This document shows positions 31,580 through 62,245 of a stretch of 64,000 nucleotides of DNA, one piece after another. Origin of the DNA: an uncultured Granulosicoccaceae bacterium. Its GTDB lineage: Bacteria > Pseudomonadota > Gammaproteobacteria > Granulosicoccales > Granulosicoccaceae. How positions within the stretch are numbered: the first letter of the stretch is position 1; the number at the start of each line of letters is the position of its first letter. Where the stretch lies: positions 62,001 through 126,000 of the forward strand of contig CALISD010000042.1 in assembly GCA_938041955.1 (NCBI GenBank), given 5' to 3'. Made by a program: the position numbers and the translations under genes. Under the pieces are notes generated by a model. The model did no database searches. It was not told where the DNA came from and saw only the letters and a list, made by a program, of their open reading frames with translations.

Positions 31580-32263
31580 TTGAATAGAAAGCGATTATCC
31601 TACACCCTTGTGCGGCCGTTGACTGCTGCCTTATTGTCCATTGGCCTGCTGGCCGCCTTGGCGTTTAATGTGAATACTGCCATTTCCGCCGATGCAGCCA
31701 CTTCCAGCGTCCATGATGGTGAAATATCCACTGCTATTTTTGCTGGCGGGTGCTTCTGGTGCGTTGAATCCGATTTTGATGCTGTGCCGGGTGTTCTTGA
31801 AACCGTTTCAGGCTATACCGGTGGGAGCACTGAAAACCCGACGTACAAGAATCATCATGCCGGTATGCATCGTGAAGTCGTTCAGATTACCTTCGACCCG
31901 GCAAAAGTCAGTTACGAACAATTACTGCATGTTTATTGGCGTAGTGTTGATCCAACCGATGAAGGCGGACAATTTTGCGATCGAGGGCATAGTTATACCA
32001 CTGCCATCTATACCGTCGATCAGGCGCAACAAGATGCTGCTATCGCTTCGAAAGCTATGCTTGTGCAAAGTGGAGTGCTTGGCAAGCGCGTTGTCACCCC
32101 TGTAGAATCGGCAAGTGAATTTTGGCCGGCGGAGGGCTACCACCAGGACTACTATCAAAAGAACCCGATTCGATACAAATATTACCGCACGGCATGCGGT
32201 CGTGATAAACGAGTAGGTAAGGTGTGGGGTGAAGAAGCGCACTCAGGTATTGAGCGTCACTGA
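31580..32263 (+). CDS. msrA: Peptide-methionine (S)-S-oxide reductase, exported form
   Basis: A 227-residue MsrA. The catalytic motif AGGCFWCVESDFD places the nucleophile Cys at residue 58, and conserved GVLETVSGYTGG, GHSYTTAIY and YHQDYYQKNP follow, with a C-terminal Cys (TACGRDK) for resolution. The N-terminal 38 residues include a hydrophobic stretch LTAALLSIGLLAALAFN, so the enzyme is probably exported or anchored and repairs oxidised methionine in envelope proteins. The start is TTG 31580, with GGAG upstream; no ATG fits. Confidence 0.92.
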   Translation: MNRKRLSYTLVRPLTAALLSIGLLAALAFNVNTAISADAATSSVHDGEISTAIFAGGCFWCVESDFDAVPGVLETVSGYTGGSTENPTYKNHHAGMHREVVQITFDPAKVSYEQLLHVYWRSVDPTDEGGQFCDRGHSYTTAIYTVDQAQQDAAIASKAMLVQSGVLGKRVVTPVESASEFWPAEGYHQDYYQKNPIRYKYYRTACGRDKRVGKVWGEEAHSGIERH

Positions 32264-32285: not shown

Positions 32286-33728
32286 TTATTGTTGCGGCGC
32301 AGCGAGCTCAAGTTGTAGCATATTTGTTAACTCGCCCAGATCGTGCTGTAGCGAGCGACAATCCAACCATAAGGCGTTCTGGGAAATGCGCCCGATCAAA
32401 GGTATCGAAAGTGTTCTGAAAAGAGTTGCCAATGCACTGGCAGACATTGCACTGTTGCCTTCAATGGCCACTGCATAGCTGTCTAGAGTTTTTGTTGGTA
32501 AAGCCCCACTGCCGATCTGACTTTTACTGGCGCTAATGGAGATGGCAAAGTCGGGTAACGCTGATACCAATGCCTGCTTCAGTGCGTTGGCAGTGTGTTT
32601 TATTTCATCATCTGTTCGCGATAATAATCTTAATGATGGAACCTGCTCTGCCAGGTGGTGAGGTGATGCATAGAGCGTAAGTACTGCTTCGAGTGCTGCC
32701 AGTGTAACTTTATCGAGCCGCATGGCTCTTTTCATCGGATTTTTATCGATGAGCTCAATCAGGTTTCGCCGTCCTGCAATGATGCCGCACTGTGGTCCGC
32801 CAAGAAGTTTGTCTCCACTAAAAGTAATGACATCTGCACCATCTTGCAGCGCTTCGCGTGCGGTGCGTTCATAGGGTAGGCCAAATGCTGTTAGATCAAC
32901 CAGAGTGCCGCTACCCAGATCGTCAATGAGAGCAATGTTGTAAGCTTTTGCAAGCTCTGCTAATTCGCTTGCTGCAATGCTTTTAGTAAAACCGTTGATT
33001 TCATAGTTGCTGGTGTGCACTTTCATTAAAGCTGCAGTTTTTTTCCCTATCGCGTCTTTGTAATCATTGAGATGTGTGCGATTAGTGGTGCCGGTTTCGC
33101 GTAGCTTACAGCCGGCCTTTTTCATGATGGCAGGTACTCTGAATGAGCCTCCGATCTCAATCAATTCTCCACGCGAAACGATAACGTTTTTGCCATCGGC
33201 AATACTGTTCAAAGTCAGCAATACGGCTGCAGCATTGTTGTTAACCGTAGTGGCTGCTTCCGCACCGGTGAGCTTGCAGATCCAGCGTTCAACGTGATCG
33301 TCACGGCGGCCGCGTTGCCCTGTTTGCAAATCGAACTCAAGGTTACATGCGCCCTGACTGACCTTAACCATCGCATCAATTGCTGTCTGAGGGTAGGGTG
33401 CCCTGCCGAGATTGGTGTGTAGTATCGTACCGGTTAGATTAAATACTTTTCGAAGCGACGGTGTGAATTCCCGGATTAGAGATGCCAGAACATCATTGTG
33501 TAGAATTTCAAGAATTGATTCATCTGTACCGGCTTCGTTAGATGTGGCCGGTGTTTGCTCGTTTAGTTGATCCTCGGCCAATAGGCGTTTGCGTGTTTGC
33601 TCTAATTGGTTACGCAATTCGCTGACAACCGAATCACGACCGTATTGCCGCGCCAGTTCAACAAAGCGCTTACTTTGAAGCACTCGATCAACTGACGGCA
33701 GCTGTATATGGCGTGATTGGCTCGGCAT
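32286..33728 (-). CDS. selA: L-seryl-tRNA(Sec) selenium transferase
   Basis: A 480-residue fold-type I PLP enzyme of full SelA length. It has the LHTNLGRAPYP segment near residue 108, an intact TFSGDKLLGGPQCGIIAGR carrying the PLP lysine, and TGTTNRTHLNDY. SelA converts Ser-tRNA(Sec) to Sec-tRNA(Sec) using selenophosphate. It lies 39 bp behind the selenoprotein gene on the same strand, so the two are probably one transcript. selD and the tRNA(Sec) gene selC are not seen in this window. Confidence 0.94.
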   Translation of the reverse strand: MPSQSRHIQLPSVDRVLQSKRFVELARQYGRDSVVSELRNQLEQTRKRLLAEDQLNEQTPATSNEAGTDESILEILHNDVLASLIREFTPSLRKVFNLTGTILHTNLGRAPYPQTAIDAMVKVSQGACNLEFDLQTGQRGRRDDHVERWICKLTGAEAATTVNNNAAAVLLTLNSIADGKNVIVSRGELIEIGGSFRVPAIMKKAGCKLRETGTTNRTHLNDYKDAIGKKTAALMKVHTSNYEINGFTKSIAASELAELAKAYNIALIDDLGSGTLVDLTAFGLPYERTAREALQDGADVITFSGDKLLGGPQCGIIAGRRNLIELIDKNPMKRAMRLDKVTLAALEAVLTLYASPHHLAEQVPSLRLLSRTDDEIKHTANALKQALVSALPDFAISISASKSQIGSGALPTKTLDSYAVAIEGNSAMSASALATLFRTLSIPLIGRISQNALWLDCRSLQHDLGELTNMLQLELAAPQQ

Positions 33729-33767: not shown

Positions 33768-34937
33768 TTAGTCGCGCCATCTATGAGGCACAATAAACTT
33801 AGTACCGAGATCTACCAGCTTTTCATCATCGGACGCCATGAATCGGTGTCTGAGTTCCCGCATTTGCTTGCCGAGGAGTGTGTCATGCCACATCCAATCG
33901 TAGATTTGCATACTGGAAGGCTGCTTATTATTCGCCAACGCTGCTTCTACGTAGTATGACTTAAGATCATCAAATGCCAGTCGAAGCATAAGTCTCGGTG
34001 ATATTTCCTCGCGCAGTGTTGTTAACTCGTTTTCCTGAAACACACGGTCAAACAAATCTGCGAGTTCTTTGATTGGCGTTTTCGCGACCCCCACAGAGGT
34101 TCGGCTTTGGCTGACGCACTGCTGTTGATAGTAAGATTTAAGAGCGGCGCTTTCTTCAGCCACTGTGGTGACGGTCTCGATAGATGGTGCCACCCATTTG
34201 GAAGACGCGGTTGCTCGAGGATCTTCAGTTTTAAATTCCTCCAGTATTGGTTGCTCTGCCGTTTCTACTAAGCTAAGCGCTTGCTGCAGTACTTCGCGTT
34301 GCAGTTTAGGGTTCCCTGGTGGCCCTAAGGGTCGCCCAAGCTCAAACGGAACCCAGAGGGCTCGCGGCGGTTGTATCTGTTCAAGGTGTGGTTTTATCAA
34401 GCCAATAACTACTGTGTTGATGCCAGCCTGTTCAATCCAGTGTGCAATCACGCTCACGGCGCGAGTACAGTTGGGTCAAACAGGAAGTAGGCAAACCGTG
34501 TTGATATTAAGGTCTGTTAGTTCCTGTGCCAGACGCTCTGCATTTTTTTGCAACAGTTCAGGTGCAGTGGCTCCCATAAACGAGTAGTGCGTGTCTGACG
34601 CCCGTTCGATGGTATCGTCCTCAGCCATTGATTTCAGTATGTCTTTTGGCAACACAGAATTAGCGTCTTCAGCGAAAGCAGTGCGATCAAAGTTAATTGA
34701 AAGGTGATTGATCAGAATGTCCCGATTTTGGCAGGTCTTGTCAAAGCGCCGGTAGTCGTCACTGTTGCCAGAAACATTCTCGTCATTGCGTCGCATTAAG
34801 CCAGCGGAAGAGATCAGTGCTACCCGGCATTTGCTCAGTGGCCGCGGTGCTGAGAATACGGCTTGCGGAAAGGTCGGACAACTCAGTGATTCAATGTGGG
34901 AGCGTTGGCTCTCCACCATGTCATTCAGCCGTGCCAT
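33768..34937 (-). CDS. GrdB-like selenoprotein (glycine/sarcosine/betaine reductase selenoprotein B family), read through an in-frame UGA
   Basis: The two open stretches 34937-34479 and 34475-33768 share one frame and are separated only by TGA at 34478-34476. Reading it as selenocysteine gives a 389-residue protein with Sec154 in LLPV-Sec-PNCTRAV, a U-x-x-C redox motif. N-terminal LISSAGLMRR, SINFDRTAF and SFMGATAP and the following RALWVPFELGRPLGPPG fit this family. Known GrdB/PrdB enzymes cleave C-N bonds of amino acids in anaerobes; the proteobacterial relatives have no proven substrate. selA follows directly and selB is divergent, which supports recoding over a pseudogene. Ordinary gene callers split it at the UGA. 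Confidence 0.9.
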
Positions 34938-35064
34938 ATAAATCTCCAGTGTTGCGGTGAGTATCGTTTATCAGCCAAAATGCTGTAAATATCACCTATA
35001 TGGTACTCATGATAGTTATAACTCAAGGTATTTGCTCGAAGAATTTTTCGGTAGTGGCCTATTT

Positions 35065-37035
35065 ATGATTATTGCTACGGCGGGCCATGTTGATCATGGC
35101 AAAACTTCTCTGGTAAGGGCGCTGACTGGCACCAACACTGATCGACTTCCAGAAGAAAAGAAGCGCGGTTTGACTATTGATATCGGGTTTGCCTATCTGC
35201 AAGCGAACAATGGTCAGCGTCTGGCTTTTATTGATGTTCCTGGCCACGAGAAATTTGTTCGCAATATGATCGCAGGCGTCGGCATGGTGGACATTGCCAT
35301 TCTGGTGGTAGCGGCTGACGACGGGCCGATGCCGCAAACGCTGGAACATATGGCCATTCTGCAACTGATGGCGGTAAGAAACATTGTGGCTGTCATCACC
35401 AAGGTGGATCTGGTTGATAGCGACCGTGTTACTACGGTAAGCGCATCGGTGGATGAACTACTGCAAGCGGCAGGTTTCGATAATACCCGGCGTTTCAGTC
35501 TCGCCACGAATGATCAAGCCGCGGTAACTTCGCTAAAAGAGCACATTGTGCAGTTGGCTGACTCGCAGCCATCGCGTCATCAACAAGGCTACTTTCGCAT
35601 GGCCATAGATCGTAGTTTTACACTTGATGGTAGTGGCACGGTGGTGACAGGTACAGTGGTGGGGGGTGAGATTAATAGGGGTGATAACGTTACTTTAGTA
35701 TCTGACGGGGTTGACCACTTAAAAACCGCTCGAGTGCGAAGTATTCACGCACAGAACGCAGAATCGGAGTCGGCAAAGATTGGCCAGCGTTGCGCGCTCA
35801 ATATCGCTGGAGAACTGTCCAGGCCGATGCTGAACCGGGGGGATTGGCTTGTCACCAATGCAGATGCTCAGTGTGTGAATGTTGTCGATGTGGTGCTGAG
35901 CCCGGCATTGTTTGTAGAAGATTATCGCAATAGCTCCAAGAAACCGCTGAGAACCAACTCCTCTTCTACGCGATTTACCTTGCAGCATTGGACGCCTGCC
36001 CATCTGCATTTGGGGGCCGCAGATATTCCCTGTCGGATTGCGCTTCTTAATGTCGACGAGTTAAAGCCCGGAGAGCAGGGCTTAGCCAGATTGATTTGTG
36101 AAAAAGAATTTTCAGCGGTACATGGAGATCGGTTTGTACTTCGGGATCAGTCGGCACGAAAAACCATAGCGGGCGGGCGTGTGCTCGATCCCTATCCACC
36201 TAAGCGCGGTCGCAGCAAACCGAGGCGGCTACAAGAACTGCACGCGTTAGATGAACAAAGTCCTGGCGCCGCATTGAGTAATTTGCTTGAACTAACGCCC
36301 ACTGGTGTTCGTCTGGATCACTTCTCGCGTCAGCTTAATTTGAATCCCGCAGAGTTAGAATCTGTCTCAATTCAGTTGGATGTAGTAACCCATCGTGCTG
36401 GCTCTGAGATGTGGGGTTTAACGAGAGAGCATAGCGGATCATTGCAAGGTGCAATCGTGAGTGTGTTGCATGAGTTTCACGATGACAATCCGGATGCGCT
36501 TGGTGCTGATACTGTTCGAATAAAAAAACTCTGTCCATTGCCAATCGAAATGGATGTGCTGGACTATCACTTACATTTACTCGTAGAGAGTAAGCAGGTT
36601 ATTAAAAGTGCAACTGTCTATCGATTAGCGGGTCGCGAAGCAACATTGTCAGACGCCGATCAGAAGCAGTGGGCGCTTGTGCACGAGCAGCTGTTAGCAA
36701 CATCACCCACACCGCCGCGAGTGACGGAGCTGGCTGTAGTTTTGGATTGCTCAGTAGATGACACTTTTCAGTTCTTGAATCACTGCGTATCGCACGGAAA
36801 GTTGTATAAGGTGACAGATAATCGATATTTTCTACCGCAAACGCTTCGTGACCTCGCAGATATTGCGATATCACTTAGCGCCAGTGACAGTTTGACTGTT
36901 CGGGACTTCAGGGATCAGTCAGGAGTAGGTAGAAACCTGGTGGTGGAGTTATTGGAGTATTTTGACAGGTGTCGCTTTACCTTGCGAATGGGTGATCGAC
37001 GAAAGACACTGAATTCGCCCGAAAAAAAATTCTAG
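35065..37035 (+). CDS. selB: Selenocysteine-specific translation elongation factor
   Basis: A 656-residue protein from ATG 35065. The frame is open back to 34957, but [20 protein letters not shown] is the normal SelB start. G1 [10 protein letters not shown]3 DVPGHE and an NKxD-like TKVD identify the GTPase domain (1-170), then two beta-barrel domains and four winged-helix repeats at the C-terminus (about 390-650). The winged helices bind the SECIS hairpin next to the UGA. It lies divergent to the selenoprotein and selA genes, sharing a short upstream region with them. Confidence 0.94.
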
Positions 37036-37252: not shown

Positions 37253-38731
37253 TTAGAGACTAAGATTCGCCAGTCGAGCGTCTGGCGGACCTTGTAGGTT
37301 TCTCATGGCAAGTAGCAGTCTTCCGGCGAATTGCATTAGATCTTTCTGTCCATGTACGTATCGTCCATCGATATGAATCAGATAATTGCCACTGGTCGCG
37401 GTGATTATCTCGACCGGGTATTCTGCATTCACCAAGCCGTTATTGATATATCCGCTGGCGCTGTACACTTCAATTGTATTTCGAACTGCGTGTCGGTTTT
37501 CGAATTCAGCGCTGTGGTGCTCGCGTTTCCAGTCTCTAATTTCAACCAGTTCGCCCTTTAGCTGGTCATACGTACTGAGTGTGCTGTTGAAGATTAGTGC
37601 TGCTGTTTTTCTCGCGGTTGTGGCTGAGTCTGTTTGTAACGCAATAACCGCAACCGGAATAGGAGTATCACTGCCGTGCTCATAATATTCGTGCTTAGTG
37701 GCAGCAAGAATTTTTGAAGTATAGAAGTTGACGATGGGTTGTCTTGCAGATGGATCTACACTAAAGGCAGCCGCAGCCAAGACGTTTCTTTTTAAGCTAC
37801 CGGTACTGTTTTTTTGCCATGGCTTTGTGCTTGCTTCTATAATTTCGGATAAGGTATCGTTTCGCCGCTCTCTCTCTCGATTCGGGAACGAGTCAGGATC
37901 GATTATCTGAATGGAATCTCTGGGTGGTTTGTTAAACGCAAGTGACACCATTGCAGCGCTGTTATTGCGTTGCTGGAGCTTGTCTATAAATCGCTCGCCT
38001 TCTTTGTAAACGAATTCCAGGTTCTTGAAGCTCCGACTCTGCACATATTTTAGTGCCGGATCTTCGGGTGATCCAGAATCAAACATGTAGTTGTTCAGTT
38101 GTGCAAATGCATTTTCACATCCGAAATTTTTACAAATTCTTCTGGTTTGCCATTGAGCGTGGCCTTCTATTACGGCAGACTTTGCGAACACTTCCTGATA
38201 GGACATCGAGTCCTGTTTGAAGGCTTGGTGGTTTTGGTCGTCAGCTGCGTGCACCAATTCATGGATCAAGAGTGCTTGAAGGGCTTCTTTCGCTCCACCG
38301 GTGCGCTTATTGAGGTATTTTTCAAGGTTGGTGCTGTGCAGCAGAATTTTCTTTACTGAAGGTGCGTATATCGCAAGCACTGATTCAGTCTGCAATGTCA
38401 GTATATTATCAACAAGACTTTCAGCAAATCTAGTGTTATCCAGATCGTGCTCCAGTGCCCCCATTAAGCTGGTTTTCGCATGGGTTGCTATGCCATTAGT
38501 ATCAGTTACGGACAATGCCACGTCTGAGAGGTCAACTCGAAGCTCACGGCTGACGACGTCTCTCACTTCTGCATACCAGGATTGTATTGGTGGTGATCCC
38601 TGTATTGGTCCCACTGCCGGGGTTTCAGGTTCTGTGGTCACTATGACATTAGTGGGTGCGCACCCCGCTAATGCGGCACTGCAGACAATCAGCGCGCAAA
38701 TAGTTTTTGTTGGAAGCAATTTTCTAAGCAT
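37253..38731 (-). CDS. Putative zinc metallopeptidase lipoprotein
   Basis: A 492-residue envelope lipoprotein. The signal peptide ends in LAGC with the lipid-modified Cys at residue 24. Residues 157-161 are HELVH, an HExxH zinc site, followed by VIEGHAQW whose Glu would be the third ligand of a gluzincin-like enzyme. The C-terminal half is mixed alpha/beta without a recognised domain. No specific family or substrate is known to me. It stands alone between selB and the lactate permease. Confidence 0.65.
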   Translation of the reverse strand: MLRKLLPTKTICALIVCSAALAGCAPTNVIVTTEPETPAVGPIQGSPPIQSWYAEVRDVVSRELRVDLSDVALSVTDTNGIATHAKTSLMGALEHDLDNTRFAESLVDNILTLQTESVLAIYAPSVKKILLHSTNLEKYLNKRTGGAKEALQALLIHELVHAADDQNHQAFKQDSMSYQEVFAKSAVIEGHAQWQTRRICKNFGCENAFAQLNNYMFDSGSPEDPALKYVQSRSFKNLEFVYKEGERFIDKLQQRNNSAAMVSLAFNKPPRDSIQIIDPDSFPNRERERRNDTLSEIIEASTKPWQKNSTGSLKRNVLAAAAFSVDPSARQPIVNFYTSKILAATKHEYYEHGSDTPIPVAVIALQTDSATTARKTAALIFNSTLSTYDQLKGELVEIRDWKREHHSAEFENRHAVRNTIEVYSASGYINNGLVNAEYPVEIITATSGNYLIHIDGRYVHGQKDLMQFAGRLLLAMRNLQGPPDARLANLSL

Positions 38732-61507: not shown

Positions 61508-62245
61508 ATGAATCTAACCCATGTATTTGGACTGCACGCTGTGCAGTCTGTGCTGCAAAACAACCCCAAGTCTGTCGTCAAGCTATTGCTGTCTGATGCA
61601 CGTGACGATAAGCGATTGTCTGAAGTTGAAGCGCTCGCGACCGAGCGCCGTGTTGTTATTGAGCGGATATCATCAAAGGAGCTGCAAAAGATTGCAGGGG
61701 AAGGCCGGCATCAGGGGGTGATTGCCCAATGCCGAGCTCGTGAAGTCATGTCCGAGCCGCAGCTGCTGACACATATCATGGGTTTAGATAACGCGCTATT
61801 GCTGGTGCTTGACGGGGTAACTGACCCGCATAACCTGGGCGCGGTTTTGCGTACTGCAGATGCCGCAGGTGTAGATGCGGTCATTGTTCCACGAGCGGGC
61901 AGTGCCGGGCTAAGCCCAGTGGTGCGCAAGGTCGCGTCCGGCGCGGCTGAGACGATGGCATTTTGTCCTGTGGCTAATCTTGCGCGCACCCTCGGAGAGC
62001 TCAAAAGCCTCGGTGTCTGGTTGTACGGAGCCAGCGATACCGCTGATGCGAAGTATACAGAAGTCGATTATCGTGGCCCGGTGGCATTGTTGATGGGTGC
62101 CGAAGGGGCAGGTCTTCGCCGGCTGACTCAGCAGGCATGCGACGGGCTGATTTCTATTCCGATGTCGGGTTCTGTAAGCAGTTTGAATGTTTCCGTCGCC
62201 ACCGGTGTATGCCTGTTTGAAGTAGTACGTCAGCGACGTGGATAA
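61508..62245 (+). CDS. rlmB: 23S rRNA (guanosine-2'-O-)-methyltransferase RlmB
   Basis: A 245-residue SpoU-family (SPOUT) methyltransferase. The N-terminal substrate-binding domain begins HVFGLHAVQSVLQNNPKSVV; the knotted catalytic domain has DGVTDPHNLGAVLRTADAAG, LLMGAEGAGLRRLTQQACDG and IPMSGSVSSLNVSVATGVCL, the three SpoU motifs. It methylates G2251 (E. coli numbering) of 23S rRNA. It lies 40 bp after rnr, as usual in gammaproteobacteria. Confidence 0.95.
   Translation: MNLTHVFGLHAVQSVLQNNPKSVVKLLLSDARDDKRLSEVEALATERRVVIERISSKELQKIAGEGRHQGVIAQCRAREVMSEPQLLTHIMGLDNALLLVLDGVTDPHNLGAVLRTADAAGVDAVIVPRAGSAGLSPVVRKVASGAAETMAFCPVANLARTLGELKSLGVWLYGASDTADAKYTEVDYRGPVALLMGAEGAGLRRLTQQACDGLISIPMSGSVSSLNVSVATGVCLFEVVRQRRG

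Follow-up and report, generated by a model that had tools for sequence, protein, structure and literature searches.

D-proline reductase and glycine reductase work with a subunit of the PF09338 family, of which GrdE is a member, and the PrdA-type subunit of D-proline reductase reportedly carries a pyruvoyl group, as the title of Kabisch 1999 has it. The selenocysteine (Sec) subunit of D-proline reductase is PrdB, a protein of 241 aa with the motif U-G-T-C, encoded in a prdC-prdA-prdB cluster. In PrdB and other U-x-x-C selenoproteins the selenolate makes the attack and the cysteine brings about resolution.

Proteins of this type have been catalogued in marine metagenomes. The passages on Sec-PrdB in two surveys count the family 42 times in the Sargasso Sea metagenome (PMC1088965) and 235 times in the GOS, where it ranks with the more abundant selenoprotein families in the ocean samples (PMC2398784); entries in two reviews list it as a family (PMC13188914, PMC9312934). 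Like the clade described here, these are U-x-x-C proteins of the PrdB type from ocean bacteria, a likeness taken from their description. A link between a selenoprotein gene and the genes that decode its Sec is also known, namely for fdhA beside selA-selB-selC, according to passages of PMC1794560 and PMC5029168. At the present locus the tied gene is PrdB-like instead, and selC lies on another contig. Neither this clade nor its lack of the partner or its linkage to selA was treated in any paper of the literature searched.

The locus and its linkage to selA

The window, i.e. the whole stretch of DNA that was analysed, comprises 64,000 nucleotides (positions 62001–126000 of contig C42) and comes from a draft assembly that totals 6.18 Mb over 222 contigs, with a completeness of 93.5%. 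The organism is an uncultured member of the Granulosicoccaceae, placed in the Gammaproteobacteria, Chromatiales, by the NCBI taxonomy. The loci of the nearest named relatives stem from metagenome-assembled genomes, five of the six being labelled Granulosicoccaceae and one Chromatiales, with the closest showing 94% protein identity. The features of the locus are collected in Table 1.

Table 1. Positions of the features at the PrdB-like locus, numbered within the window
Feature	Position	Strand	Evidence and remarks
PrdB-like selenoprotein gene (very probable)	33768..34937	-	389 codons and TAA stop, one in-frame UGA
UGA codon, very probably for selenocysteine 154, motif U-P-N-C	34476..34478	-	UGA in 23/23 full-length proteins, Cys in 16/16 Cys-type relatives
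Apical SECIS-like hairpin, 10 pairs, loop CGUGA	34443..34469	-	90% of cells paired (26 sequences), covariation, codon freezing
Longer stem-loop, UGA paired in lower stem	34427..34484	-	lower stem from the window's own fold alone
PrdB-like domain, residues 19–227	34257..34883	-	TIGR04483 92 bits (cut-off 300); hhalign with Enterococcus raffinosus PrdB 99.4%
C-terminal helical domain, residues 244–389, lineage-specific	33771..34208	-	
selA, selenocysteine synthase	32286..33728	-	TIGR00474 569 bits (cut-off 268); 39 nt downstream of the stop of the PrdB-like gene
selB, Sec-specific elongation factor	34957..37035	+	TIGR00475 410 bits (cut-off 242); divergent from the PrdB-like gene

The sequence-only reading had described two stretches in one frame, joined only by a TGA in the motif LLPV-Sec-PNC and flanked on both sides by genes for Sec incorporation. 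The coordinates bear this out: the minus-strand ORFs 34937–34476 (153 aa) and 34457–33768 (229 aa, GTG start) share a frame whose sole break is this TGA, and the flanking genes are selA downstream and a divergent selB upstream, as that reading had named them. The readthrough product measures 389 aa with U154 within LLPVUPNCTRAV; standard annotation would split the gene in two. The first 36 residues of the selB ORF as listed lie outside the TIGR00475 match, which starts at residue 37, corresponding to ATG 35065; this ATG is probably the true start. Promoter and terminator patterns at the locus showed no excess over shuffles. Two further neighbours were observed: an msrA at 31580–32263, convergent to the adjoining selA and present in six of the loci compared, and, at 37253–38731, a gene whose 492-aa product contains the motif HELVH and matches no Pfam family above cut-off, and which adjoins selB in ten of the loci compared.

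All of selA, selB, selC and selD are present in the genome. The tRNA-Sec has the anticodon UCA and is encoded on a contig other than that of the window; a second Rfam tRNA-Sec match (C42:183122) was rejected, as it is a tRNA-Ser. SelD forms the C-terminal part of a 721-aa fusion (L009 1417–3582) and has Cys, not Sec, in HCAGCGSK, which we take to be the SelD active site.

A search of 48 genomes of the family gave a match to the PrdB-like protein in 24, of which 17 carry a selA-linked, TGA-bearing copy and 7 only matches listed without a stop. Exactly one internal TGA was found at 22 places (own gene included; one is cut by a contig end), these being the 17 selA-linked copies and five second paralogues of 32–36% identity in five of the same genomes. 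selA (TIGR00474) was detected in 17 of the 48 genomes, exactly the 17 that have the selA-linked gene, and in all of them it is adjacent and on the same strand; these are related genomes and neighbouring genes, so that the match does not amount to 17 independent events. The spacing, measured between ORFs in 15 cases, is 0–393 nt, while for G008 and G017 the order was taken from search coordinates. In 11 loci a divergent selB lies on the far side of the gene, and in two (G004, G005) it comes after selA; the remaining four have a contig stretch without selB or were outside the selB comparison. In another family, G310 shows the order gene-selA-selB, a transposase remnant separating the PrdB-like gene from selA. 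In G405 (L073 9896–12061) the two are separated by a gene on the same strand that encodes a sensor histidine kinase with PAS and receiver domains.

No selA was seen in the stretches fetched around the five TGA-bearing paralogues. Because these genomes thus hold a second TGA-bearing copy away from selA, the PrdB-like gene is not always the only client of the Sec machinery. As for FdhA as another client, many FdhA-like genes were found, and none of the matches listed has an internal stop. As a separate observation, a shorter TGA-bearing PrdB-like gene with the motif VAMUPVC in another family (G138; L089 5799–9015) is divergent to a gene whose 739-aa product carries the domains Pyr_redox_2 and AIRS. 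The product is probably a SelD fusion, and the pair would then represent a second linkage of the superfamily to a selenium gene.

The constancy of the order gene-selA, seen in 17 of 17 family genomes within at most 393 nt where measured, and extended by selB in G004 and G005, would also fit a mainly non-catalytic selenium sensor in which readthrough of the UGA gates the translation or transcription of selA. We regard this as unlikely, since the motif and indeed the whole 389-residue protein are strongly conserved, selB is divergent in 11 loci, five paralogues are unlinked to selA, and the kinase gene intervenes in G405.

Relation to PrdB, the missing partners and the C-terminal domain

In its N-terminal part the protein shows homology to PrdB, with Sec at the same U-x-x-C place. 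hhalign with the PrdB of Enterococcus raffinosus gave 99.4% over residues 20–229, and the score with the PrdB model TIGR04483 is 92 bits, below the cut-off of 300. Unlike PrdB, the protein has 389 aa, with an additional C-terminal domain, and its gene stands beside selA rather than in a prdC-prdA-prdB cluster. PF07355 (GRDB) was matched with 45.4 bits against a gathering score of 22, over profile positions 221–344 of 347. The GrdB-type NCBIfam models were matched at approximately positions 217–426 of 431–435, with scores below the cut-offs for PrdB, GrdB, GrdF and GrdH. The likeness to GrdB, GrdF and GrdH (PF07355, TIGR01918) is thus confined to the C-terminal part of these models, which includes the U-x-x-C, whereas their N-terminal ~217 positions have no counterpart here, and neither GrdA (five genomes searched) nor PF09338 (48 genomes) was found along with the gene. 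The sequence-only reading had referred to GrdB-like proteins; among characterised families PrdB is closer than GrdB.

The PF09338 partner subunit, to which PrdA belongs, was found in none of the 48 family genomes. The same search detected prdA and a gene for a component B subunit on the Enterococcus raffinosus plasmid NZ_CP081847.1, used as a positive control. As the genomes are drafts, this absence rests on all 48 together. Selenoprotein A (GrdA) was likewise found in none of five family genomes, its positive control being detected. On the grounds of these missing partners, membership in a D-proline or glycine reductase was rejected. That the protein is a genuine subunit of D-proline reductase (or of a glycine, sarcosine or betaine reductase), as the family name suggests and as its clear homology, the shared U-x-x-C position and the PF07355 score above cut-off would allow, is therefore very unlikely, the more so as it falls far below the cut-offs of the specific models and carries the extra domain.

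This C-terminal domain comprises ~146 residues (244–389) with invariant P251, E262, G283, D324, E331 and W350, and was modelled as seven helices (pLDDT 92.0). Its comparison with the PDB gave no meaningful match (best E 2.4). In the model of the full protein (pLDDT 91.6, pTM 0.90) Sec154 is predicted to lie between strand 147–151 and helix 155–170, at the start of the helix. No PDB structure matched the full model below E 0.02 (best E 0.023; query-normalised TM ≤0.23 in the best 50 matches), and neither this match nor the best hit in a viral structure library (E 0.042) was meaningful. Searching the PDB by sequence, the family profile found nothing up to E 10 and the single protein two chance-level matches; true PrdB found nothing convincing either (best E 0.63). 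Judged by these searches, no solved template seems to exist. As true PrdB is also without a convincing solved relative, the missing structural match is a poor guide to whether the first domain is novel.

The in-frame UGA and the hairpin behind it

In all 22 single-TGA places of the family the TGA falls within the same motif. In the class, eight of 369 genomes searched gave any match (own genome counted); two genomes of another family have a full-length TGA copy with the same motif, and two of a third family a shorter TGA copy. The recurrence of the motif in the 22 places and in the two full-length relatives of the other family argues that the UGA is more than chance. Among 398 Pseudomonadota genomes 16 matched (own included), with the full-length Sec type only in the own genome, two places in G535 being left out. 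These two (L114, L117) are remote matches outside the class, listed with an internal TGA. An order-level search of the same 48 genomes showed a TGA in G006:C103 and a TAG in G016:C48, each within longer matches of Cys-type genes that the family search had listed stop-free. Plasmids gave no nucleotide match and remote protein matches in 19 records; among phages a single remote match at the protein level turned up, in a record that carries no annotation.

The UGA at residue 154 is kept in all 23 aligned full-length proteins (31–94% identity to that of the window), and P155, C157, T158, R159, A160 and V161 are invariant in them. The relatives of the Cys type, annotated in Proteobacteria as 'glycine/sarcosine/betaine reductase selenoprotein B family protein', belong to the same superfamily and have Cys at the Sec site, as C-P-x-C, in 16 of the 16 aligned (taken from 24 such places listed); so do two alphaproteobacterial plasmid proteins. 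They differ in length (256–325 aa in the compared set) and form a separate branch: in a tree of 45 rows, one branch (100/99) has the 23 full-length Sec proteins on one side, and 18 Cys proteins are set apart likewise. The program warned of long-branch meeting, and the placement of PrdB, GrdF and two short Sec proteins in this tree is unsure.

Purifying selection acts on either side of the UGA. For the closest pair, dN was 0.028 before and 0.034 after the UGA, with dS at 0.72 and 0.56, and for five other pairs dN was 0.15–0.19 before and 0.17–0.26 after, with dS >2 or not computable. On these values the region behind the UGA is maintained as protein by purifying selection. Taken as a whole, the evidence is strong that UGA 34478–34476 is a selenocysteine codon, and the gene very probably makes a Sec protein.

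The bases behind the UGA were folded, as the sequence-only reading had proposed, and a SECIS-capable hairpin was predicted. Folding of 34490–34425 gave −24.7 kcal/mol (z −4.32), which none of 200 shuffles equalled; three other cuts of the window gave z −2.16, 0.19 and 0.36, the two longer ones being no better than shuffles. In 26 relatives (24 genes of the full-length type and 2 of the short type) the apical helix of ten pairs is formed in 90% of cells and a lower helix of three pairs in 59%. None of 500 shuffles attained the covariation score of 0.229, and controls slid along the alignment scored 0.021–0.089. Five pairs have changed on both sides (a number reached by 12 of 500 shuffles), and the further pair types were reached by 36 of 500. 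RNAalifold, unaided, predicted only 6 pairs in the hairpin region. On average 9.0 of the ten apical pairs form in the 26 Sec genes, compared with 6.9 in 16 Cys genes.

Ten Sec genes were recoded synonymously, 1000 times each. The observed number of pairs was reached 1–38 times per 1000 in six genes (once for the gene of the window) and 86–124 times in four; the observed folding energy was reached 4–36 times in seven genes and 134–233 times in three. The codon is GCC for Ala160 and GTG for Val161 in 23 of 23 genes, and the mean normalised codon entropy is 0.41 for the seven invariant-residue codons after the UGA vs 0.85 for 27 elsewhere, a value as low being met in 3 of 20000 random draws. At the hairpin site no RNA family reached its Rfam cut-off, a match to mir-1420 remaining far below. 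Constraint at the RNA level after the UGA is thus demonstrated by sequence comparison, yet the RNA evidence is uneven. None of the three findings by which the sequence-only reading would have been refuted (homologues without Cys or Sec at the site, no SECIS-capable fold, no selC and selD in the genome) was encountered.

That the UGA is a real stop, its halves being separate proteins or the gene decaying, is extremely improbable: a GTG 18 nt after the UGA could start a second ORF, but no purine-rich ribosome site is apparent by eye in these 18 nt, the same UGA recurs in every aligned gene at the position of a Cys in relatives that are one continuous protein, both halves are under purifying selection, the codons following it are frozen, and the gene co-occurs exactly with selA.

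A probable stand-alone reductase and its significance

The reading that we consider likely is that of a genuine selenoprotein of the PrdB superfamily, a stand-alone U-P-N-C reductase that lacks a PF09338 partner and is the chief client of the sel genes next to it. It is founded on the conservation of the UGA, the Sec/Cys pair, the constraint on the RNA, the linkage to selA and the absence of PF09338, all of which were established at the level of sequence. SelB, together with Sec-tRNA and the following hairpin, would decode the UGA as selenocysteine. The product would combine the U-P-N-C redox motif at a helix start with the lineage-specific helical domain and act without a PF09338 subunit. The selenolate of Sec154 would attack an electrophilic substrate, Cys157 would resolve the adduct to give a selenenylsulfide, and a reductant of the thioredoxin type would recycle the latter. 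This chemistry and the electron donor are proposed by analogy with PrdB and U-x-x-C selenoproteins, the reaction being a guess from the motif. We infer an operon with selA, which would probably be expressed behind the PrdB-like gene in one transcription unit, and likewise the role of principal client.

No single hint at a substrate emerged from the genes around the Cys-type copies and the paralogues. In 7 of the 13 stretches fetched from the family (L077, L078, L079, L083, L084, L086, L087), a five-gene set for an ABC transporter of the Liv type, with family scores below the equivalog cut-offs, is found close to the Cys-type gene. The second Sec paralogue of G006 (L071 3893–6356) is flanked by a gene for a short-chain dehydrogenase and one for a GFA-domain protein, standing 3 nt ahead of the second, and these surroundings are possibly a functional neighbourhood.

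The genome holds two genes of the COX1 family, from which the organism can probably respire oxygen; the description 'aerobic' in the sequence-only reading stands as far as this capacity and no further. The compact selenium module described there is supported. The kind of protein is not new, Sec-PrdB genes of ocean surface waters having been catalogued since 2005 (PMC1088965, PMC2398784). In the literature searched, the loss of the partner, the extra domain and the selA linkage of this clade appear to be undescribed.

A bolder proposal, to which we attach little weight, is that this marine gammaproteobacterial lineage keeps Sec coding because of a new class of stand-alone, oxygen-tolerant PrdB-type selenoenzyme, whose helical domain would have an unseen fold, and that Sec-dependent readthrough of the enzyme's UGA gates selA, making the gene both client and sensor. 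Under the stand-alone reductase reading, the locus presents a case in which the client linked to Sec-decoding genes is not formate dehydrogenase. With selA linked in 17 of 17 genomes, removal of one gene would be expected to remove much of the need of the lineage for selenocysteine. If the relatives in the GOS samples are also without PrdA, the label 'proline reductase' would be wrong for them, and a widespread marine selenoenzyme activity would be without an assignment.
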